DNA of 36,631 nucleotides from Nanobdellota archaeon (GTDB taxonomy: Archaea > Nanobdellota > Nanobdellia > SCGC-AAA011-G17 > GW2011-AR17): assembly GCA_018830945.1 (NCBI GenBank), contig JAHJRD010000086.1, positions 1 to 36,631 of the forward strand, read 5' to 3'. Of the stretch, positions 15,739 to 29,591 are shown piece by piece (position 1 is the stretch's first letter; each line of letters opens with the position of its first letter). Both the position numbers and the translations under genes were made by a program. The notes below the pieces were generated by a model. The model made no database searches, was not told where the DNA came from, and worked only from the letters and a program-made list of their open reading frames with translations.

Positions 15739-17223
15739 ATGGCATTGATTGGCAAAAGAGGGGATACAACCACATTAAGCTTTTTGATTGGAATAATTAT
15801 ATTCTTACTGATAATCATACCTATAGGCATTGCATTCTATCACTATTTGTATGCCAGCAGCAAGATGGAACAGACTCTTGATTTGCTTATTGAGAGGACA
15901 ATCGCGCTTGGAGATGAAGGGGAAGGGAGCATTGTCGGATACATGGAAGAAGGATATGTGCTTGTCGGCTTTGAGAAAGACAACAGTGATTTCGGCGGCA
16001 GCGGCGTGTGGTCATGCGGCGGCTGGGTATTCCCGTGGAACATTAAAAAGCCTTCCAAATGCGGGAATAAAGCGTGCCTGTGCGCCTGCCCGATTACTGA
16101 AGCGCCGCTTATTGACACTGATTTGATTCTAAGGCCAGGTGCGTGCGAAAGCGCAACCTGCAAAGTTTATGATGAAGGCATGGACCCGAGGTTTTACGGC
16201 GGCTCGGAATGCGAATACGGGCCTTTTATCAAGACAGACAATCCTGTTCTTGAAATATATTATGCTAAGAATGGAGATACAATTGGAATATGCACTGATA
16301 AAGACTGCATTTCCGAGGATATTAACAGGGCAAGGGAAGTATTTGACAAAGTATATGAAAAATACCTTGAATGCAAGGCATATGAAAAGGATGACTGCAT
16401 ATGCGGCAGCGTTGAAATATCATCAATGCCCTTTGATCATTTCATCCGGTTTAAAACAGACGGCACAAAAACCACAATAACCCTGCAGGACATTGACGGA
16501 CCGGCAAGAGCACTGAGAGTTATCCCTGATGACTATTTTGGCACATATTCTGCAGGGAGGGATGAGGCAGTGGAGCAGGCAAAGTTTGATGTCCAGCGAG
16601 AAGTGCCAGTATCCTGCGAAAGCTTTGATTTTGGATGCTTTGAATCATATACATTATTAAAGTCAAAAGGCGGTTTTGTGGCATTTGCCAAAGGCACATT
16701 TAATGGAATGGCTTTTACGCCTCCGCAGATAACAGGAAAAGAGCGATGCGATGCAATGGAAGCAGCTGAAAAGAGCTGCGCAGATGTAGAAGGGGAATGC
16801 ATGGAAAGCTGTGACTTTGATAGAGAGAATCCAATAACTGCAAAATGCGAAAATGAAGACGAGTCGTGCTGTGTTTCATCAAAGTGCGGAAGCGAAGGAA
16901 AGTGCATGTTTCTATGCACAGAAGACAAAAAGCTTCCGGAATTCAACTCTGAATGCAAAGAGCCGGGCACTATATGCTGCAAAGTTTCAAAGTGCGTTGA
17001 TATCGATGGAACCTGCAAAGATACATGCTCTGACACTGAAGATGACTTAAGCATTCAGGGCTCATGCGAAACAGGCAAATGCTGCAAGGAAAACATATGC
17101 AAGGCAAACGGAATGTGCACATACCTGTGCCTGGATGCAAACAAGCTGCCTGAATTTGATGCAGGCTGCAGCAATGGGCAGGTATGCTGCAAAAGCGACA
17201 TAGAGCCGCTGATTGAAGGATAA
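15739..17223 (+). CDS. Large anchored protein with four tandem six-Cys modules
   Basis: 494 aa. Residues 1-40 are a signal-anchor with a pilin-like KRGDTTTLSF before one long hydrophobic helix, so most of the protein faces outside. The middle part (about 60-340) is a unique domain with many cysteines. Residues 347-484 hold four tandem modules of about 36 residues with the pattern C-x5-6-C-x3-C-x11-12-C-x4-6-CC, the modules being C347-C378, C383-C414, C419-C449 and C454-C484. The same module is found in the protein at 20290. The function is unknown; adhesion or binding at the cell surface is likely. It is followed 1 base later by trmY, which probably shares the transcript. Confidence 0.75.
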   Translation: MALIGKRGDTTTLSFLIGIIIFLLIIIPIGIAFYHYLYASSKMEQTLDLLIERTIALGDEGEGSIVGYMEEGYVLVGFEKDNSDFGGSGVWSCGGWVFPWNIKKPSKCGNKACLCACPITEAPLIDTDLILRPGACESATCKVYDEGMDPRFYGGSECEYGPFIKTDNPVLEIYYAKNGDTIGICTDKDCISEDINRAREVFDKVYEKYLECKAYEKDDCICGSVEISSMPFDHFIRFKTDGTKTTITLQDIDGPARALRVIPDDYFGTYSAGRDEAVEQAKFDVQREVPVSCESFDFGCFESYTLLKSKGGFVAFAKGTFNGMAFTPPQITGKERCDAMEAAEKSCADVEGECMESCDFDRENPITAKCENEDESCCVSSKCGSEGKCMFLCTEDKKLPEFNSECKEPGTICCKVSKCVDIDGTCKDTCSDTEDDLSIQGSCETGKCCKENICKANGMCTYLCLDANKLPEFDAGCSNGQVCCKSDIEPLIEG

Positions 17224-19777: not shown

Positions 19778-20299
19778 ATGATGAAGAAAAAAGCGCAGGC
19801 AGAAGACATATTTGCAGACTTTGTAATTGCCTTAATCTTCATAATAACAACAATAATCCTCATCTCATGCACAGAATCAGGTGAAGAGGCAAAGCTTCCA
19901 TACAAGGTCATACAGGAAACAGCAGAACTTTACAGCACTGACATTCTAATGATGCTTAAATCAGATTTAAGCAGCTATGGCTACAGGGAGATGGCATTTG
20001 CAGAGCTTTTTGCAGTAATTGCAGAAGATGAAAAAGAAAAATACCCCTGGATTTTTGGAGAGGCTGCTTTTGTTGATGATGAAGAATGCACTGAAAAATT
20101 TGAGATGATGATGTCTGATAATTTCAGGTTTGGCTGGGATATCCAGCTTTATAATGAGGATGGAGGAGAATTGTTCCGCTGCGCACCAAATGGGCGCGAA
20201 CCAATATCGCATAAGGCAGTGTTTTGCAGGCAAAAAAGCATATGGCTTCCATTAAAAGATGAAGGAAACGCAAGGCTGGAGGTGGCAATATGCCCATAA
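19778..20299 (+). CDS. Pilin-like anchored protein
   Basis: 173 aa. The N-terminus MMKKKAQAEDIFADFVIALIF has a basic start followed by AQAEDIF and a hydrophobic helix of about 20 residues that ends in a Cys. The outer domain is acidic, with Trp-containing strands and further Cys residues (DDEECTEKF, FRCAPNG, VFCRQKS, VAICP), so disulfides are likely. It overlaps the following gene by 10 bases. It resembles the other proteins of the cluster in plan, not in sequence. No known family is recognised. Confidence 0.65.
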   Translation: MMKKKAQAEDIFADFVIALIFIITTIILISCTESGEEAKLPYKVIQETAELYSTDILMMLKSDLSSYGYREMAFAELFAVIAEDEKEKYPWIFGEAAFVDDEECTEKFEMMMSDNFRFGWDIQLYNEDGGELFRCAPNGREPISHKAVFCRQKSIWLPLKDEGNARLEVAICP

Positions 20300-21312
20300 G
20301 GAAGAAGGCAGTTGTCGTATTAAGCCTGTCTGCAATTGCATTTTTCATCGCAGTTATCATGCTTTCCCATGATGTGATAAGGCTTGCCCCTGGCCCAAAA
20401 GCAGATTATCTTGGGCAGACTGAGATTAAGATGTTCAATGCGTATGTTTCAGGGGAGGAGCAGCGCCTTTACATTGACATGGCTGCAAAATATGCATATG
20501 ACAAGGCAGGAGGCAAGAACCAAATAAAGGAAGATGAGGATAAGTTTATGGCTGCATTTACTGAAGATTTTGAAAAGCGCCTTGAGTCATTTAATAGAAT
20601 ATACGGAGAAGGCGCGAAGCTTATATCTGCTGCTGACTTTGAGATTTCAGCTGATGAAAGCAGCATAAAAGGCATTACTGAAAATACACTTGTCATTTCC
20701 TCTGATGATTATACATATTTATTCAAGCCAAATTTCAGGATAATTTTTGAAGCAGATGTTGAAGAGTTTGTGCCGCCTGCTGAGATTGAGGAAACATGCA
20801 GCGCAGCTAACGGAGCATGCAGGCTTGAGTGTGATACAAATAGCGGTGAAAGTGCAATCGCAGGCGCTGTCTGCCCAAAATCCAGTGAAGGCCTTGCGCA
20901 GTACTGCTGCAAAATTCCGGCTGAAACATCTGCAGAATGCGTTGGAACAGGAGGCAGCTGCCAGGCAGGATGTGAATATGATGAAGAGCCTTTGGATATT
21001 AACTGCGGAACAGGCAAGCACTGCTGCAAGCCAAAAGAGGAAACAGTGCCTTTATTGCCTTCATGCACTGATATGGAAGGGATATGCAGGATAGGCCCGG
21101 CTGCTGGCGAAACTCTTTATACAGGCGCAACCTGTGAAAGGCCTAATGAGTTTTGCTTTGTCGGGCAAGAGCAAAATGAATGCGAAAGCAACGGCAATGA
21201 GTGCAAGGCATTAAGCTGCGAGCATCCTTCTTTGGCTGCTGAGTATATATCAATCCATGCGTATGATTCAGCCTGCGGAACAGGCAGGTACTGCTGCAAA
21301 AAAAGAAGCTAG
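20290..21312 (+). CDS. Anchored protein with four six-Cys modules
   Basis: 340 aa. A single N-terminal helix (about 8-27) anchors it. Residues 45-160 form a mixed alpha/beta domain. Residues 170-336 hold four modules of the same type as in the protein at 15739: C170-C207, C217-C246, C259-C289 and C298-C336. The third module lacks the third cysteine (Pro270 in its place) and the second cysteine of the CC pair (Phe290), a paired loss that suggests these two form a disulfide. It is the last gene of the operon, and its stop overlaps by 4 bases the 3' end of the convergent minus-strand operon. The function is unknown. Confidence 0.7.
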   Translation: MPIRKKAVVVLSLSAIAFFIAVIMLSHDVIRLAPGPKADYLGQTEIKMFNAYVSGEEQRLYIDMAAKYAYDKAGGKNQIKEDEDKFMAAFTEDFEKRLESFNRIYGEGAKLISAADFEISADESSIKGITENTLVISSDDYTYLFKPNFRIIFEADVEEFVPPAEIEETCSAANGACRLECDTNSGESAIAGAVCPKSSEGLAQYCCKIPAETSAECVGTGGSCQAGCEYDEEPLDINCGTGKHCCKPKEETVPLLPSCTDMEGICRIGPAAGETLYTGATCERPNEFCFVGQEQNECESNGNECKALSCEHPSLAAEYISIHAYDSACGTGRYCCKKRS

Positions 21313-21965
21313 AATCTCCTCATAACTCTTCTTGCAATCCCCATAACAGGAAACACAAAAGTAAGCATTGCTGCAATGTTCGCCCATGTTTCATTAAGCC
21401 CTATCAGCATGTAAAAAGTTATAATTTTGTCATAAAAGCCGCTCTCATCCTGCGAATAGCCATTATCGCCCTCTTTTGCTGTTTCTTCAAGTTCTCCTGC
21501 TTTTGACATGAATTCATCGCGCTTTTCAAAATAATCCGCATTTCTGATTGAAGACTCAAGATTATGGCAGATTGATTCAGCAGCGCTGTAATTGCCAAGC
21601 TTTATTTCAGCTTCAGCCTGCCTTAACTGCAGCGAATAATCAGCTTCCATTGTCTGCTGCAGCCTTTGCTCAAGGGATTTGTAAAAATTATCCATCCCTG
21701 TAAAAGCTTTCAGCTCTTCTGCGCATTTATCAGTATCTTCATAATCCCTGGCAAGCAGGTATTGCTCGCACACTGCAAGCTTTTCAAAGCCAGGCGCATT
21801 AACCTCCCCGCTATTACAAGAATCCATGCATTTTGTTGCCGCAAACCCCAAAGCGGCTGTGGCGGCAATGCCAAGCGCGATATATTTTATTCCGCGAAAC
21901 AGCCCCCTCTTATCCTGCCTTGCAGAGCCTGACAACAGAGACTCAATCCTTCTTTCATCAGGCAT
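21309..21965 (-). CDS. Membrane-anchored helical-repeat protein, last gene of the ubiquitin-like operon
   Basis: 218 aa. Two hydrophobic segments frame the protein: about 27-45 (KYIALGIAATAALGFAA) and a C-terminal one (about 184-210, MLIGLNETWANIAAMLTFVFPVMG). Between them is an acidic helical region with TPR-like character (NYSAAESICHNLESS and LLARDYEDTDKCAEELKAF) and four or so cysteines. It overlaps the HTH gene upstream by 8 bases, so it is co-transcribed. Its link to the modification genes is by position only; it might be a membrane target, a sensor or an unrelated passenger. Confidence 0.65.
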   Translation of the reverse strand: MPDERRIESLLSGSARQDKRGLFRGIKYIALGIAATAALGFAATKCMDSCNSGEVNAPGFEKLAVCEQYLLARDYEDTDKCAEELKAFTGMDNFYKSLEQRLQQTMEADYSLQLRQAEAEIKLGNYSAAESICHNLESSIRNADYFEKRDEFMSKAGELEETAKEGDNGYSQDESGFYDKIITFYMLIGLNETWANIAAMLTFVFPVMGIARRVMRRF

Positions 21966-22362
21966 TTTCCTGCTTTACCTCATCAACAATAAAATTCACT
22001 CTTTTTGCATTGCAAAGCTTTCCAAGCTCCTTGTCAAACATGTAAAAGCCGTGCATTTCCCGGAAAATTGCAAAAACAATAACCGGATAAGGGCCTGCTG
22101 CTGTAAAAAGCGCATTTACATTATAGCTTGAATCAAGATACTGCATCAGCTTCCTGCTTTTCGGCGCAAGAAAAAACATTGCATGCACTTCAAAACCCAT
22201 TGCGCGGAAATCAGGAATGATTGTATATTTTTTTATATATTTATTGCACTTTCTTAATGCCCTGGCTGCGCAATGCCTTGGCATGCCTGCCTTGCGCGCA
22301 ATTGCTGCCAGGCTCTGCCTTGCATCTTTCCTTAAAAGTTTTATAATCTCTTTTTCTTTCAT
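21958..22362 (-). CDS. Lrp/AsnC-like HTH protein
   Basis: 134 aa. The N-terminal helix-turn-helix (KEKEIIKLLRKDARQSLAAIARKAGMPRHCAARAL) has the Lrp/AsnC plan, in which the first helix lists LLRKDARxSLxxIA. The C-terminal part (about 50-130) has the alternating strand-helix pattern of an RAM/ligand-binding domain but is shorter and more divergent than usual. Its start codon overlaps the stop of the E1-like gene (ATGA, 4 bases). It may be the regulator of its own operon; a candidate operator in the leader of the operon is not evident beyond a small hairpin. Confidence 0.75.
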   Translation of the reverse strand: MKEKEIIKLLRKDARQSLAAIARKAGMPRHCAARALRKCNKYIKKYTIIPDFRAMGFEVHAMFFLAPKSRKLMQYLDSSYNVNALFTAAGPYPVIVFAIFREMHGFYMFDKELGKLCNAKRVNFIVDEVKQENA

Positions 22363-23606
22363 TGCGCCTCCTGATTATGACAAGCACAACCTTCTCCCTT
22401 CTTGCACGAACACTGCGCCTCAACAGGCAAATAAGATATTTTTTCGTGTATTGGCTTTTTAGAGAAATAAAGCAATTGCTTTTCAGGGTTTAGGAATTCC
22501 TTTGAATAAAAGCCAGCAGCCACTGCTCCTATCAATGCATTGCACATTACAATGTTTGATTCAGCCACAGAAGCGCAGCTTTCAGGCTTTTTTTGTTGCA
22601 ATTTGATTTTTCCGCGCCTGCATTCAAGGCATGTATTATTGCTTGCAACATCAAGCCTTGCTGTGAAAGCGCCAACGCCTGCATCAACAAGAGGAATATT
22701 GCTTTCAAGCGCATACCTGCTTATGAGCTTTCTTGCATGCCAGCTGTCAACACAGGAAAAAATTGCGCTGTAATCCTTGTTTGCTGCATGCTTTTCCTCA
22801 AAAAAGCAGCCATTTGCCTGTATTCTTGCATCAATAAGTGATTCAAGCTTCTGTTTCAGCGCAAGCGCCTTGTTTTTGCCAACAGCATCGTAATAAAGCA
22901 CCTGCCTGTTAAGGTTTGTTTCCTCAATATTGTCTCCGTCATATATCTCAATAGGGATGCCGAGCAATGCAAGGTTTAATGCAAGATAAGTGCCTATGCC
23001 TCCTGCTCCGATAACCAGCGCAGGCTTATGTTTTGCAATGATTGTTTTTGCATTAATGCTTAAAGCGCCTGAAACCCTTTCATCGCCAGGAAGATTAAGC
23101 AATGATTTTCTTGCCTCGTCCATGGCAATTGCAGCTATTAATCCAGATGTGAAAGAGCCTTGTAATTCTTCATATCCAGTGATTGGAGGCAAAGAATTAA
23201 GCATTGACTCAAGCCTGCTTCTTGGATATTCAACAGCAATCCCTGCCTTTGCTGCAGCAGACGAAGCGCTCATGTATGTGATTGAATGCCTTAATGCATA
23301 TTCCCTTGTTTTTTGTTTTGATTCAATGCTGTTTGTAAAATCAGCTATGATATCTGCTTTTCCGATAAAATCCGGCTCAAATTCCGTGTTTATTTCTGCA
23401 ATCTCAAGATCAGTATTAATCATTGACGCAAGCATTGGATCCAAAAACCCTTTTTCCCTGCCGGTAAACAATGTAATGCTTCCAATACCAAGACCTGCTG
23501 CATAAAGCAGGAAAAAGGATGCAATATTTGAATTTCCGATTACTGCAATTGAGCTGTTTCGAAGCACTGCTTGGTCAAATACCGCTGTTTGTTTTGAATA
23601 GTCCAT
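22359..23606 (-). CDS. E1/ThiF-like adenylating enzyme with two Rossmann halves
   Basis: 415 aa. Residues 1-190 look like a degenerate E1-type Rossmann half: YSKQTAVFDQAVLRNSSIAV then IGNSNIAS (20s) in place of GxGxxG. Residues 195-365 are a canonical half: GAGGIG (200-205), YDGDNIEETNLNRQ (222-235) with the R finger, GKNKA (243-247) and CVD (285-287). CLEC (326-329) and C344 follow; C344 in PESCAS is the best candidate for a thioester cysteine. A Cys-rich tail has C399, C401, C407 and C409. The inactive-plus-active arrangement resembles eukaryotic E1 and bacterial BilD and Cap2. It starts 1 base after the E2-like gene. It would activate the C-terminus of a ubiquitin-like protein using ATP. 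Confidence 0.88.
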   Translation of the reverse strand: MDYSKQTAVFDQAVLRNSSIAVIGNSNIASFFLLYAAGLGIGSITLFTGREKGFLDPMLASMINTDLEIAEINTEFEPDFIGKADIIADFTNSIESKQKTREYALRHSITYMSASSAAAKAGIAVEYPRSRLESMLNSLPPITGYEELQGSFTSGLIAAIAMDEARKSLLNLPGDERVSGALSINAKTIIAKHKPALVIGAGGIGTYLALNLALLGIPIEIYDGDNIEETNLNRQVLYYDAVGKNKALALKQKLESLIDARIQANGCFFEEKHAANKDYSAIFSCVDSWHARKLISRYALESNIPLVDAGVGAFTARLDVASNNTCLECRRGKIKLQQKKPESCASVAESNIVMCNALIGAVAAGFYSKEFLNPEKQLLYFSKKPIHEKISYLPVEAQCSCKKGEGCACHNQEAQ

Positions 23607-23607
23607 T

Positions 23608-24636
23608 TTAATTCCTGTTTGTCAGCAACTGCATATCAACCCTGCCTGTTATTTTCTGTGCGTCAAACCTTTTGTCACTAAGGTACGCATAGGGCTTTCC
23701 CCTGCTCCTGTATTCCTCTGTAAACACTGTTCTTGCCTTTTCCATCAGCTCAGCAATTTGCGCAACATAATTGCCAGGGTGCCTTCTCCTTATTGCATCA
23801 TAATCATAATTGCCTGTGCAGATTGCCTGCATGGCTTTGTTGGCAGAGGAGAGGGAGGGATGCGTATACGCATTAAGCACATGCAATTTTCCAAAATCAA
23901 TCCTGTTTTTGTTGAAGAAAATCCTTGAGCCGGCAACAGCTTCTGGAAATGCATAATAAGAGCCATTTCTTTTTTCATAAAGGATATATGGCGCAACCTT
24001 TGTTATTGCATAAAATTCATTATTAATTATCCTAAATCCAATTTTTCTTTCTGCATCATAATATTCTCCTGCAGCAAGCGCCTCAAGCGTTATTTTCCTT
24101 GCATAAAGGCAGGGCTTGCCAGCATTATTCTTTTTTAATGCATCCTGGTATGATTTTTCAAGCTCTGGTATTGTTGCAATAGGCGTTAATCCAAGATTGT
24201 AGCGCTTGTTTCCAATTTTCGCATTTGCTCCTGGCTCAAAAAGGGGGTATACATTGCCGTTAAGTATAAACAAGTCATGCATAGGCAATACTTTTTCTGC
24301 AATTTCAGGCTGTGTTTCAGGAAGGCGGCTGTTGACAATGAAATCAGCAAGCACCTGAAAGCTTGAATGAAAATGCGATGTCTGCGCTTCAAGCTTTTTC
24401 ACAGCAGATTCAATGCTGGATTTTCTTATGCAGTCAATTATTGAAGTATTCCTTAGCTTTTGCTCTATAAAGGCATGCTCAAGCTGCGCGACTGTGCCTG
24501 CCCTGGCAAGCCTTATCTCATGGCCGTAAAACTGCACAAACCCGTCTTTTCCATCCTCGTCTTTCCTGTACATTTCAGGATATGAGATTGCCGCGCAGGT
24601 TTTTGCAAGATAAGTGCTGAAAAAGCTTTCAGGCAT
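23608..24636 (-). CDS. Candidate E2-like conjugating protein
   Basis: 342 aa with no signal peptide. The C-terminal part (about 195-310) has a strand-rich region (IGFRIINNEFYAITKVAPYILY) followed by FGKLHVLNAYTHPSLSS and then MQAICTGNYDYD. This His-Pro (259-260) followed by Ile-Cys (272-273) and Gly is the spacing seen around the active-site cysteine of E2/UBC proteins (HPN...ICL) and in prokaryotic E2-like families of PRTRC and Bil operons. A following helix (VAQIAELMEKARTVF) fits. The N-terminal part (1-190) is helical and unrecognised. It overlaps the JAMM gene by 8 bases and is followed by the E1-like gene. The E2 role is inference from motif and neighbours. Confidence 0.6.
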   Translation of the reverse strand: MPESFFSTYLAKTCAAISYPEMYRKDEDGKDGFVQFYGHEIRLARAGTVAQLEHAFIEQKLRNTSIIDCIRKSSIESAVKKLEAQTSHFHSSFQVLADFIVNSRLPETQPEIAEKVLPMHDLFILNGNVYPLFEPGANAKIGNKRYNLGLTPIATIPELEKSYQDALKKNNAGKPCLYARKITLEALAAGEYYDAERKIGFRIINNEFYAITKVAPYILYEKRNGSYYAFPEAVAGSRIFFNKNRIDFGKLHVLNAYTHPSLSSANKAMQAICTGNYDYDAIRRRHPGNYVAQIAELMEKARTVFTEEYRSRGKPYAYLSDKRFDAQKITGRVDMQLLTNRN

Positions 24637-25885
24637 CTTTCACTCCTTTTGCCTTTTTCAGCATTGACTCTACCTTTTTCAGCAAGGGTTTTTTTCCAGG
24701 CATCTTTTCAATGATTGCTTTTGCCTCATTTAAGGGATTGATATAGACATCTAACGGAACGCCTGATTCTTCAATGCTTGAGAAAAGCTGAAAAATGGTT
24801 TTAGGGCTTGATTCAACTGCGCCTGAAAGCGCTGCAAATAAGTCAATCACTGCCTTGTCAGCGTGCATGTATCTTTTGCATGACTCAGAGCGCTGGTAAA
24901 AATCTATTGCAGAAAGGAATAATCCAACATAAAATGCATGCATCTCCGTTGCTTCAATGCATGGATCTTCTGAATCATATTGCCTGAAAGAGAATAACTG
25001 CTTTTCATTTACAATGTTTTCTATTGAGTCTTTTGCATTTGGCTTTTTAGGCAGCTTTTCCTTGTATTTATCTAACTCTTCATCTGAAAGCGCGATTACG
25101 TCTTCGATTGATTCTGCAAGCTCTTGAGGGTTATCACATTTAATTGAAAAACAGCCATATCTGCTTGTGATTTCAACTGCATTATTTTTAATCCGGGTTT
25201 TTGGGGATGCTTTTTTTCTGTAAGCAGGCATGTCCTTAAGCAAAAGGCCACTTATTGTGTAATTATTTGCCATGTTTTCAAGAACAGAAGTTGCCATTAT
25301 AGGATGGATATCTATTTTTGCTTTTTCCTGTTTAAGTTCATTGTTTTCAAGCGAAAAGTGCATTGCATCATATGCTTTATTGCTTCCATTGTAAGTGTCA
25401 CGGTTTATGACAATGCTTTGGAATGTTTCAGGAAGCTGTTCATGCACATTTTTTATTTCCGGCTTATAGTTAATGCTTAATTTGATTTTCATTCCCTGCA
25501 TTGTTTCTTTGTTAAACAACTTTATGCTTCCCGGATTAGAATAAGCATCCCATGCGTCAAGCAAATCATTCTCCCTTTGCATTGCTTTCAGCCTGTTTTT
25601 CACATGAGTGTGGTCTGTTGGCGAATGAAAGACAGGGAAATAGCCGTGGCTGTGCCACATGCCTGTTATGTTCATTCCCTGCTCATAGAGCTGCCTGTAA
25701 AGAAAATCCCCTGTCCCGCTTTCAGCGTCATCGCCGTGCTGTTCAGGAAAATAAAAGTCAGTTACTGCACTGCTGCCTTTCTCAGCAAGCAGATATCCCA
25801 TGCATTCAACATCCCTGCCAACAATACCTGATATTTCCCTTGCAGCCAGGCACATCCTGCTAAAAACTTCACTGCTCAGATGCAT
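24629..25885 (-). CDS. JAMM/JAB-domain metalloprotease-like protein with long extension
   Basis: 418 aa. Residues 1-135 hold a JAB/MPN domain with a complete JAMM zinc site: Glu27 (VECMGYLL), then His78-Ser-His80 (MWHSHGY), seven residues, Ser88 and Asp91 (SPTD). JAMM proteases cut ubiquitin-like proteins from targets or process their precursors. The remaining 280 residues are unrecognised; they include an acidic helical segment and a Lys-rich end KKAKGVKDA. It overlaps the first gene of the operon by 10 bases, and the E2-like gene by 8. All four catalytic residues are present, so an active isopeptidase or tail-processing protease is likely. The long C-terminal part might recognise the modifier or the target. 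Confidence 0.88.
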   Translation of the reverse strand: MHLSSEVFSRMCLAAREISGIVGRDVECMGYLLAEKGSSAVTDFYFPEQHGDDAESGTGDFLYRQLYEQGMNITGMWHSHGYFPVFHSPTDHTHVKNRLKAMQRENDLLDAWDAYSNPGSIKLFNKETMQGMKIKLSINYKPEIKNVHEQLPETFQSIVINRDTYNGSNKAYDAMHFSLENNELKQEKAKIDIHPIMATSVLENMANNYTISGLLLKDMPAYRKKASPKTRIKNNAVEITSRYGCFSIKCDNPQELAESIEDVIALSDEELDKYKEKLPKKPNAKDSIENIVNEKQLFSFRQYDSEDPCIEATEMHAFYVGLFLSAIDFYQRSESCKRYMHADKAVIDLFAALSGAVESSPKTIFQLFSSIEESGVPLDVYINPLNEAKAIIEKMPGKKPLLKKVESMLKKAKGVKDA

Positions 25886-26295
25886 ATTCCCACATCATCA
25901 TACAGCTTTACAGTCATGTCAAGGCAGTCATAGTCAGTGCCTTCAGGCGTCTTTCTTCTGTCAATGTAAGCAGCAACCTTTTCATCAAGCCCAAGTATCT
26001 CTGTATTGTCTTTTCTTTTCCTTGTGCTGTCAGCATTGTATGCTCTTACCTCGCAGGTTGTGTTCACGCCGTTGTGCTGCTGCAGATAGTCCCTTGCTTC
26101 CAATGCAACAGGCTCTGTTGAGTTTTTCACCATTGCCTCAAGCACTTCCCTGAATGTCACCTTTCTCAAATTAGCATCAAGCTCTGCATACACAGCCCTT
26201 GACTCATACATTGCCTTTTCATCGCCTTTTGCGTCTATTGATTTTCTCCTGTTCACTTCTGTGTTCAGGACTCCGACAAGCTTTGTTTCACCCAT
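25876..26295 (-). CDS. First gene of the ubiquitin-like operon, candidate modifier
   Basis: 139 aa with no signal or membrane segment. It begins MGETKLVGVLNTEV and ends DYDCLDMTVKLYDDVGICI. The last strand followed by Val-Gly-Ile-Cys-Ile would leave a C-terminal Gly if the JAMM protein removed the three end residues, but no Gly-Gly is present. I can see strand-helix-strand segments (for example TCEVRAYNAD, LDEKVAAYIDRRK, DMTVKLYDD) that could form a beta-grasp, not enough to assert it. It is preceded by a strong ribosome-binding site (aaaggaggataaaa) and overlaps the JAMM gene by 10 bases, the place taken by the modifier gene in many comparable operons. Alternative: an unrelated operon leader protein. 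Confidence 0.5.
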   Translation of the reverse strand: MGETKLVGVLNTEVNRRKSIDAKGDEKAMYESRAVYAELDANLRKVTFREVLEAMVKNSTEPVALEARDYLQQHNGVNTTCEVRAYNADSTRKRKDNTEILGLDEKVAAYIDRRKTPEGTDYDCLDMTVKLYDDVGICI

Positions 26296-26433: not shown

Positions 26434-27117
26434 TTAGCATTCTTTTAAGTTTTTTTTTAACTTCCTTGAAACTGATTTTGCTTTTCCCTCGGCAAATCTC
26501 TCTGCCCTCATTAGCCCTTTCCCTGCTTTTCTCCCGGCCTTCTCTATTTCCTGCTCTGCTTCCTTTAATTCCTCCATTTCATGCAAATGGTGCTTGCCTA
26601 TCGGCTTTTCATAGAATGGGATTGCCTTCACCAGCCTTGGGCTTCTTGCAAGCGGCCTCATTACTTTTAATATCTTTTCTGTCCTGCTTATCTCGCCGGC
26701 AAGCTTTGCTTCTTCTATCAGCTTTCCGCCCCTGCCGAAGAACTCTGAAATCTCCTTTCTCCCTTCAACTATTGTATGGAGTATTGACTGCCCTTCCTTA
26801 ATTTCCGCAGGGAGCCTTGCAAATATTGTAAATGTCTCAAAAATCCTGAACACAAGCACGAAAGGGAAGACAGCTATTATGTCAAGCCAGCACTCTTTGA
26901 AGAAATTCTTGAAGTTCCTAATCCTGTTGTATTTAAAGCCTAAATCTATTATAAAAAGGCCAATTACAATATAATCAAGGATTAAAAGCCAAATATGATA
27001 TTTCTCTGCGAATTCCTTGAAGAAAAGCTCTGTTATTATGATAAATGCAAGCACGATTAATGCGTATGGTATGGCTCTGTCTACAAAGGATTCTATCTTG
27101 TGAAGCCATGGTTTCAT
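26434..27117 (-). CDS. Voltage-sensor-like membrane protein without pore
   Basis: 227 aa. Four hydrophobic segments are visible in the first 110 residues (about 15-32, 42-62, 75-92, 95-108 in rough terms). The pattern (helix, then LLILDYIVIGLFIIDLGFKY, then RNFKNFFKECWLDIIAVFPF, then FRIFETFTIFARL) recalls the S1-S4 region of voltage-gated channels: an acidic/aromatic S2-S3 and Arg residues near S4. No pore-loop signature follows. The C-terminal 100 residues are soluble, basic and helical (LKEAEQEIEKAGRKAGKGLMRAER), probably cytosolic. Similar sensor-only proteins occur in archaea; the function is unknown. A TATA-like ccttaataagc about 25-35 bases upstream of the ATG suggests a leaderless start. 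Confidence 0.6.
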   Translation of the reverse strand: MKPWLHKIESFVDRAIPYALIVLAFIIITELFFKEFAEKYHIWLLILDYIVIGLFIIDLGFKYNRIRNFKNFFKECWLDIIAVFPFVLVFRIFETFTIFARLPAEIKEGQSILHTIVEGRKEISEFFGRGGKLIEEAKLAGEISRTEKILKVMRPLARSPRLVKAIPFYEKPIGKHHLHEMEELKEAEQEIEKAGRKAGKGLMRAERFAEGKAKSVSRKLKKNLKEC

Positions 27118-27296: not shown

Positions 27297-27716
27297 ATGC
27301 AAAAGAGGTATTATTTAGACACTTCCATTTGGAGAGACTTCTATGAAAATCGTAAAGACAGGTTCCGGCCGTTGGGAGAGTGGGCTTTTGAATTATTCAA
27401 GAAAATAATACGCGAGAAGAGCGCCGTATTGTATTCAGAAGCTACATTCAAAGAATTAAGAGACTATTTCAGCATTGATGAAATCAAAAGGATATTCAGT
27501 ATCGTAGCTGGCAAGGGGCTTTTGGAAAAAGTAGAAATAAGTCAGGAGCAGAAAAGAGGGGCAGGCAACTTATGCAATATAAGGAATATACCATTTAATG
27601 ACTGCCTGCATGCAGTATTAGCAAGAGACAATTCAGCTATAATGGTTGCAAGGGATCATCATTTTGAATTGCTTGCAGATATAACTGAATCCAAAAAGCC
27701 TGAAGAGCTACTTTAA
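27297..27716 (+). CDS. PIN-domain protein, VapC-like nuclease
   Basis: 139 aa. It begins MQKRYYLDTSIWRDFYE, the first PIN acidic site (Asp8 in LDTS). An acidic position follows in YSEATFKEL, and the last sites are NDCLHAVLARDNSAIMVARDHHF. This matches PIN domains of archaeal VapC-type RNases, which cut RNA with Mg2+ or Mn2+. No antitoxin gene lies upstream on the same strand; instead, a ribbon-helix-helix protein is encoded on the opposite strand and their ends overlap by 9 bases. A TATA box ends 23 bases before the ATG, so the transcript is leaderless. Confidence 0.8.
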   Translation: MQKRYYLDTSIWRDFYENRKDRFRPLGEWAFELFKKIIREKSAVLYSEATFKELRDYFSIDEIKRIFSIVAGKGLLEKVEISQEQKRGAGNLCNIRNIPFNDCLHAVLARDNSAIMVARDHHFELLADITESKKPEELL

Positions 27717-27968
27717 TCCCCACTCTTTCATCAGCTGATTGCCAACCTTTTCTTTTGTCTTTTCAAGCTGTGCATCAGTTACATGCACTTTCGCAGCGCC
27801 CTTGAACTTTTCCAGCTTTTTTATTGTGATTTCCGCTTCTACTTTCCATATCATTTCCCTTATTGCCTCCCTTATGAACTCTGTCCTGTTATTGAAATGC
27901 AATGGCTTGATTAGCTTGTCCATTGTCTTTACAATGTCTTCCTGCAGCTTGAATGAGATTGTATTCAT
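27708..27968 (-). CDS. Ribbon-helix-helix DNA-binding protein
   Basis: 86 aa. The N-terminal MNTISFKLQEDIVKTMDKLIK...NRTEFIREAIREMI is a CopG/ParD/NikR-type ribbon-helix-helix domain, with a strand (ISFKL) for DNA contacts and two helices. The rest is a Lys/Glu-rich helical tail that could bind a partner. It converges on the PIN-domain gene and overlaps it by 9 bases, so it may be the antitoxin of that protein. It has a strong Shine-Dalgarno (aggagg) and an inverted-repeat operator right in front of it, which fits autoregulation. Confidence 0.85.
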   Translation of the reverse strand: MNTISFKLQEDIVKTMDKLIKPLHFNNRTEFIREAIREMIWKVEAEITIKKLEKFKGAAKVHVTDAQLEKTKEKVGNQLMKEWGLK

Positions 27969-28516: not shown

Positions 28517-28996
28517 CTACTTCCTCAGCATCAAATTAATGTTCTTAAGGAACTTCTCTGCATTTGCTATGCTCTCGCTTGCAGGCTCCATGTTTGCCTG
28601 CGGCAGCTTCCTGTATGTAAATTTCCCCCGCTTTGATTTTTCCCATTTAAAGATGCCGAGCAATTCATCTGCTTTCACAACAAGCGACTTGTAAATGTTC
28701 AGCAGCTTAACATCAATCTCACCTGACAATGTAAGCTTTTCAAATTCCACATATGTTTTTTGGTGCTCTTCCGGCGGCTCTGTGACAATCTCTTTTGAAG
28801 ATAAGAATGCTTTCGCAGAGTAGAATATACAGTAATAGGCATTGCTTATTGCATCGCTGAAAAAAGTTACATCTTCCTTTAATTCAAGTAAAAGCTTGAT
28901 TTCCGGAGTTATGGAAATCTTGAAAATCGCCCTTGCCAGATCAAGCTCATTTTTTGCCCGCTCCAGATATAATCTCGCCTTTGAATCCATGCTCAT
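28517..28996 (-). CDS. HEPN-domain protein of an MNT/HEPN pair
   Basis: 159 aa. The pattern of helices with AISNAYYCIFYSAKAFLSS followed by EEHQKTYVEFEKL is that of the HEPN family, whose members often are RNases or toxins. The catalytic Rx4-6H motif is not apparent: the late region has YRKLPQANMEP instead, so it may be a non-catalytic or divergent member. It overlaps the 3' end of the nucleotidyltransferase gene by 50 bases if it starts at ATG 28996, and somewhat less from ATG 28990. The pair resembles HepT/MntA-type two-gene modules. The last residues are LMLRK. Confidence 0.75.
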   Translation of the reverse strand: MSMDSKARLYLERAKNELDLARAIFKISITPEIKLLLELKEDVTFFSDAISNAYYCIFYSAKAFLSSKEIVTEPPEEHQKTYVEFEKLTLSGEIDVKLLNIYKSLVVKADELLGIFKWEKSKRGKFTYRKLPQANMEPASESIANAEKFLKNINLMLRK

Positions 28997-29591
28997 GCGC
29001 CTCCTTTACAAGCTGGTAATAAATATCTGCGTTAAGAAACAGCTTATGCCTTATTAAGATTTGCTTTGCAAGGTTTTCTTCAGGCCTTAACAGCATCTTT
29101 ACAAAATCTTCAAATGTTATGTAGTGCTCATCTATATGCACAGGATAATTTAGCTTAATTTCATTAAAATAAGGCTTAATCTTCTTCTCTTGTATTGCAT
29201 TTTCCACAAGGAAGCATATGTCCATATCGGAATCTTTTTTCTGCTTGCCTTCTGCATAGCTTCCGAATACGAGCAGGCAGTAATTTTTCTCCGGAATTGC
29301 CTTTATTGCTTCTGAAATGACATTTGTGCATGGAAAACCAAGATTTTCCTGCGCTTCAAGGTATTGCAGCATATGAAACAGCAATGGATTGCCCCAGTTT
29401 AAGCTGTAAATATCAAGATTGCCTTTTCTTTCTGAAGCCAAAAGCCCATTTTTAACAAGCTCCTTAAGCGCGTTAAACACCCATGGCTTTGTATTCTTCT
29501 TTGCAATTTGCATTATCTCAGATATGCTCAACCCTTGAAAGGGGCTGCTTTTCCACGCATTTAGCAGGTTCAGCTTTTCATTTGAAATCAT
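28947..29591 (-). CDS. MNT-type nucleotidyltransferase with N-terminal winged helix
   Basis: 214 aa. Residues 1-75 form a winged-helix domain (SISEIMQIAKKNTKPWVFNALKELVKNGLL then a wing). Residues 105-215 form a minimal nucleotidyltransferase with GSYAEGKQKKDSDMDICFLV: the GS motif and the SDxD pair of metal-binding acids, plus a later acidic position near VHIDEHY. Related MntA proteins silence a HEPN toxin partner by adding AMP. The HTH domain could also repress the operon. The promoter carries inverted repeats at 29606-29644. The C-terminal end overlaps the HEPN gene by up to 50 bases. Confidence 0.85.
   Translation of the reverse strand: MISNEKLNLLNAWKSSPFQGLSISEIMQIAKKNTKPWVFNALKELVKNGLLASERKGNLDIYSLNWGNPLLFHMLQYLEAQENLGFPCTNVISEAIKAIPEKNYCLLVFGSYAEGKQKKDSDMDICFLVENAIQEKKIKPYFNEIKLNYPVHIDEHYITFEDFVKMLLRPEENLAKQILIRHKLFLNADIYYQLVKEAHEHGFKGEIISGAGKK

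Follow-up and report, generated by a model that had tools for sequence, protein, structure and literature searches.

Complete E1-E2-Ubl-JAMM cascades, in which Ubl stands for a ubiquitin-like modifier, are known in bacteria and in the Asgard and Caldiarchaeum archaea, the latter bearing on the origin of ubiquitin. I describe here a six-gene operon in DNA of a Nanobdellota archaeon (positions 1 to 36,631 of contig JAHJRD010000086.1, assembly GCA_018830945.1; this whole stretch of 36,631 nucleotides is hereafter called the window), in which genes for an E1 activating enzyme and a JAMM protease lie beside candidates for a Ubl and an E2 conjugating enzyme. In the bacterial Bil system (BilABCD), Ubl, E2, JAMM and E1 share one operon; BilA has two Ubl domains, BilB has a CEHH motif, and BilD, like eukaryotic E1s, consists of an inactive and an active adenylation unit (PMC11354881). 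The PRTRC set, found on bacterial plasmids with ParB/E/F proteins, has a Ubl (protein C) followed by E2, JAB and E1 proteins (B, A and ThiF), with protein F between C and B; its B protein has an IC-x-G site without a His-Pro, and its ThiF, at ∼265 amino acids, is too short for a tandem arrangement. The Caldiarchaeum and Asgard systems possess a recognisable ubiquitin, whose precursor carries a pro-peptide trimmed by a JAMM protease, as well as an E1 and E2 cascade (PMC5654768) and a small RING E3. Haloarchaeal SAMP modification also employs a ThiF-type E1 (UbaA) and a JAMM protease, but SAMP conjugation needs no E2 (PMC11354881).

The six genes are located on the minus strand, between positions 21309 and 26295 of the window, with neighbours overlapping by 4–10 bases or standing 1 base apart, as described in an earlier interpretation of the letters and open reading frames (hereafter referred to as the sequence-only reading). 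The same reading placed the host among DPANN-type archaea, and the nearest named loci do belong to Nanoarchaeota/Woesearchaeota metagenome-assembled genomes, with UBA9640, STB_88 and Yes70-37 in the genus and the rest in neighbouring families. The four core genes and their key codons are as follows.

25876..26295, minus strand: gene A, candidate ubiquitin-like modifier, 139 amino acids, ending in YDDVG136 and the tail ICI
25888-25890, minus strand: codon for Gly136 of gene A
24629..25885, minus strand: gene B, JAMM/JAB metalloprotease, 418 amino acids, Pfam Prok-JAB match of 23.8 bits, just under the 25-bit cut-off
25805-25807 (E27) and 25613-25654 (H78 to D91), minus strand: codons for the JAMM site of gene B
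23608..24636, minus strand: gene C, candidate E2-like conjugating enzyme, 342 amino acids, with H259-P260 ... C273
23818-23820, minus strand: codon for Cys273 of gene C
22359..23606, minus strand: gene D, E1 activating enzyme, 415 amino acids, with an inactive N-terminal and an active C-terminal ThiF unit
22575-22577, minus strand: codon for Cys344 of gene D, the candidate catalytic residue

The three other genomes of the genus have homologues of every gene of the operon, similarly arranged, except for a helix-turn-helix (HTH) regulator gene that one of the three lacks. Identity to these homologues is ∼40% for the JAMM and E2-like proteins, 50–60% for the E1 and 63–68% for gene A. Because homologues of the genes keep this arrangement in three genus mates, the operon is more than a chance association.

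The E1 assignment of gene D is firm. Pfam ThiF (PF00899) matches residues 196–365 (E=4.5e-37), and gene D is the sole match to this E1 at E<=1e-12 in the genome of the window (1.5 Mb, 109 contigs, 95% complete). The GAGGIG, NLNRQ and CVD motifs named by the sequence-only reading are all present, but its description of the protein as an E1 half was mistaken, as a degenerate ThiF unit at the N-terminal side precedes the active C-terminal unit. The N-terminal half on its own scores above the Pfam ThiF cut-off in 7/7 members tested, and the active-site residues (D223, D225, N231, R234, Q235, K246, D287 and C344) are kept in the second unit only, in 20/20. An RQ motif is retained in the N-terminal unit of most members, with Lys instead of Arg in the window copy; the corresponding Arg of eukaryotic E1s extends into the partner unit's ATP site. 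Among PDB sequences, the best relatives of the E1 profile are the NEDD8 E1 UBA3 (E=2.8e-33) and the ubiquitin E1. Gene D differs from these eukaryotic enzymes in being one 415-residue chain with a minimal Cys region; its pairing of inactive and active units is that reported for BilD and eukaryotic E1s. Neither the NCBIfam model for PRTRC ThiF (46 bits, cut-off 145) nor that for the SAMP-activating E1 (42 bits, cut-off 450) reaches its threshold on gene D.

The JAMM assignment of gene B is also firm. Its site was read as Glu27, His78, His80, Ser88 and Asp91, exactly the residues found, and these five are the only invariant columns in an alignment of 19 JAMM proteins that share 13–39% identity with the window protein. 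In one relative (locus L014, 1840-3534), the JAMM protein possesses an added transmembrane (TM) segment and a LysM domain, features that suggest that it acts at the membrane or cell surface there.

Gene C lies between the JAMM and E1 genes, and its His-Pro...Ile-Cys signature, pointed out by the sequence-only reading, is present as HPSL...AIC. In an alignment of 36 homologues with a mean column identity of 16%, C273 is the sole invariant residue besides M1, while G200, H259 and P260 are kept in at least 90%, and most members of the family have an HP-x(5-16)-C motif. The canonical E2 active site reads HPNINSNGSICLD; two distant members, with HPFVYDNGSICYD (locus L017) and HPFVSLNGKYICFD (locus L056), appear to come almost to it. 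With hhalign, HP and C273 align with HPN and the catalytic Cys in yeast E2s, whose reference sequences may contain errors (for two query profiles, 1 and 3 of 200 column shuffles scored as well), and C273 aligns with the IC-x-G site in protein B of PRTRC (1 and 0 of 200). The AlphaFold2 model (pLDDT 83.9) runs through a helix, a strand meander, the HP/Cys loop and further helices, which is the E2 order. C273 is the candidate catalytic Cys, within what would be a UBC/RWD fold. In locus L017 (4530-6311) the E2-like gene is duplicated and two JAMM genes surround the E1; the second E2-like copy has no Cys (HPFVYDNGSIDYDG), and is probably inactive.

For gene A, an alignment of eight sequences has invariant columns at M1, E38, Y110, I111 and G136 only. 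In another alignment, of 31 small proteins selected by position, directly upstream of the E2-like gene or, in the genus of the window, of the JAMM gene, G136 is the sole column besides M1 kept in at least 90%. A GlyGly occurs within the last 15 residues of 19 of these 31 proteins, compared to 4 of 153 control proteins of 100–300 amino acids from the same loci (Fisher p=2.8e-14, a value that overstates independence, since position was the criterion for choosing the A proteins and they share ancestry). After YDDVG, the tails in the genus are ICI, NGTA, NGSA or CR, and the family labelled f13 ends in VGGK. With its conserved Gly, its short variable tail and an intact JAMM protease encoded alongside, the protein resembles a Ubl precursor. 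A single VG with a short tail behind it is likewise the ending of UFM1. The AlphaFold2 model is of low confidence (pLDDT 68.7), with one strand/helix set in the 139 residues and no sign of two domains. Its strand/helix order, in which an insert separates strands one and two, is compatible with the beta-grasp fold that such a modifier would be expected to adopt.

The survey of gene order in relatives confirmed that the genes stay together. Within the phylum, 40 of 371 genomes, spread over 34 of 259 genera, contain a match to the E2-like family at E<=1e-5. The commonest order, complete in 12 loci of which some have an insertion or a duplicate, is Ubl-E2-JAMM-E1; Ubl-E2-E1-JAMM is found in families f13 and f5 and in two further loci, and Ubl-JAMM-E2-E1 in the genus of the window. 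The sequence-only reading considered the gene order unlike any described system, which is true of the genus but not of the phylum. The commonest order is that of BilABCD and, but for the added protein F, of PRTRC; the apparently novel one is a genus-level rearrangement. A scan of genome contigs for close relatives with the JAMM protein alone as query returned none, and none of the viral contigs scanned carried the operon.

Set beside the described systems, the locus shares with Bil the four components in a single operon, but differs in its archaeal host, in encoding a single small candidate modifier together with an HP...C protein, and in that both lack a database family match. The likeness to PRTRC lies in the succession of a Ubl and E2, JAB and E1 proteins, and in the IC-x-G alignment; the His-Pro, the tandem E1 and the setting set them apart. 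Compared to Caldiarchaeum and Asgard, with which it has archaeal origin and, by the assignments proposed here, the trimming, E1 and E2 components in common, the modifier and E2 are here orphan by sequence, and no RING match was found by Pfam in the six operon genes. An archaeal Ubl, a ThiF-type E1 and a JAMM protease are also features of the SAMP/UbaA system, while the candidate E2 is not. Finally, although UBA3 is the nearest relative of its E1, gene A has no sequence match to any eukaryotic Ubl. The locus is best read as a conserved cassette of a known kind, with a sequence-orphan modifier and E2. A search of the literature, which most subscription papers and preprints lay outside, gave no account of such an operon from this archaeal lineage.

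It is directly observed that the genes are present, conserved and clustered, that the JAMM and E1 sites are intact and the E1 tandem, and that gene C has its Cys and HP and gene A its conserved C-terminal Gly; the reactions, the roles of the accessory genes and the substrates are inferred. The operon very probably encodes a complete pathway for Ubl conjugation and deconjugation. Gene A would be made as a precursor, from which the JAMM protease would trim the residues after Gly136 (here ICI). The active C-terminal unit of gene D would then adenylate the exposed Gly and hand the modifier to Cys344; gene C would accept it on Cys273 and join it to an amine of the target, and gene B could also remove it from targets. 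That catalytic residues are almost the sole invariant columns in such divergent alignments counts in favour of this pathway, as does the published trimming of the C-terminal tail of archaeal pro-ubiquitin by a JAMM protease in Caldiarchaeum (PMC5654768). The GlyGly enrichment in the A family, the clustering of one gene set across many families, the closeness of the tandem E1 to the NEDD8 and ubiquitin E1s and the hhalign result for the active site of gene C point the same way.

Several observations weigh on the other side. The A and C families have no family match in Pfam, NCBIfam, PADLOC or PDB sequences, and a Pfam run on all their members gave just scattered single matches. Foldseek found nothing significant for the A model in the PDB, or for the C model in the PDB and viral proteins (the viral protein A0A516LAI7 appeared with E=1.1e-3 and a TM-score of 0.22). 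The modifier candidate of the window has VG, with one Gly, where GG might be expected, the Ubl of distant loci is assigned by its position upstream of the E2-like gene, and none of the operon genes was recognised as encoding an E3-like protein. Neither A nor its family has a ubiquitin match in Pfam, and hhalign of the family with ubiquitin, MoaD, ThiS and URM1 gave no signal (the reference sequences may contain errors); a PF00240 search of the window's genome was uninformative, as the control matched nowhere. With no family match and no significant structure match, the folds of A and C are predictions. Its notion of a self-contained conjugation and deconjugation system stands for the E1, the JAMM protease and the clustering, with the Ubl-like features of A and the E2-type motif of C in support, and stays provisional for these two folds.

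Two further genes complete the operon.

21958..22362, minus strand: gene E, candidate winged-helix regulator of the Lrp/AsnC type, 134 amino acids (PF13404 E=1.5e-4, below cut-off; NCBIfam Lrp-type models weak)
21309..21965, minus strand: gene F, predicted membrane-associated protein, 218 amino acids, genus-specific, without a Pfam match

Homologues of gene E stand at the operon's 3′ end in two of the three genus mates (G003 has none) and in families f13 and f5; those of gene F are at the operon end in 4/4 genus genomes. Hydropathy predicts TM segments in the F homologues, while the window copy remains under the same threshold. The Lrp-like protein may control expression, and gene F may tie the system to the membrane.

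While the reaction chemistry follows from the parts, the physiological role does not. One proposal, tentative but worth entertaining, is anti-virus defence or a stress response, as for bacterial Bil/Bub. The patchy occurrence noted above (40/371 genomes, 34/259 genera) and the core parts and gene order shared with BilABCD favour it, and an HTH regulator adjoins the operon; Bub operons often carry regulators (PMC13373217). On the other hand, PADLOC gives generic E1 and weak JAB matches and no full system, the neighbouring genes inspected in the window include no recognised defence system, and the operon is kept in all four genus genomes. It is also conceivable, with similar reserve, that the system serves regulated proteolysis or membrane quality control through the host proteasome. 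The window's genome has two proteasome-family genes, TM segments are predicted in the F homologues and in several downstream partners, and one relative has the TM and LysM additions to its JAMM protein; such membrane-predicted partners and a proteasome present throughout the tested relatives are compatible with regulated turnover. However, proteasome genes are found in 25/25 relatives tested, whether or not the operon is present, and no operon link to them was seen.

Other readings concern the chemistry itself. It is unlikely that gene C serves a Ubl system without a UBC fold, either as an unrelated Cys carrier or as the main target of E1-driven modification. The lack of any E2 family match in Pfam or PADLOC (0/36 members) and of a significant Foldseek match would fit this, but the HP-x(5-16)-C motif, the near-canonical HPFVYDNGSICYD and HPFVSLNGKYICFD, the hhalign placement of HP and Cys and the E2-like order of the model argue against it. 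Less probable still is that A is a ThiS/MoaD-type sulphur carrier, with D making its adenylate or thiocarboxylate, the JAMM protease only processing A, and C an unrelated partner enzyme: ThiF-type E1s serve sulphur-carrier and conjugation uses alike, JAMM processing is known for some sulphur carriers, and ThiS matches one protein among the 31 of the A family weakly (E=0.077), but the tandem inactive/active E1 is of conjugating-type architecture, an invariant-Cys HP...C protein stands beside the E1 in nearly every locus, and the operon genes include no sulphurtransferase, thiamine or molybdopterin gene.

Around the operon, a gene before A (26434-27117) has three predicted TM segments and a weak ion-channel match; it occupies the same place in 4/4 genus genomes, and may be co-transcribed. 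The gene downstream of F (20290-21312) is convergent, with a four-base overlap. Its protein and that of 15739-17223 each have a hydrophobic segment at the N-terminus and repeats of a Cys-rich unit (G-x-C...C...CC); both genes belong to a series of pilin-like genes that runs towards the operon from the opposite direction. By eye, a convergent pair at 27297-27968 resembles a PIN-domain toxin and a ribbon-helix-helix antitoxin, and an adjacent pair at 28517-29591 resembles HEPN and MNT nucleotidyltransferase proteins. Elsewhere in the phylum, very large proteins adjoin the E1 gene in loci L018 (2749-7236, a TPR protein of 1495 amino acids) and L059 (1695-6335, 1546 amino acids). The operon's neighbours in other families, among them TPR giants, radical SAM and Cdc48-type AAA proteins, are not shared, and do not decide between the roles.

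The conjugation pathway proposed for this operon can be tested in vitro from four small genes. For annotators, it means that current family libraries miss a family of modifier and E2 proteins, and the system itself. On balance, the loci seem to represent a patchy, phylum-wide Ubl pathway of DPANN, with an orphan modifier, an orphan HP...C E2 and a tandem E1 like that of eukaryotes and Bil, so that full cascades would have arisen or persisted in archaea outside Asgard and Caldiarchaeum. A widespread set of this kind in small-genome DPANN would constitute an independent archaeal lineage of these cascades, in which a tandem E1 is combined with a highly divergent modifier and a previously unrecognised E2.

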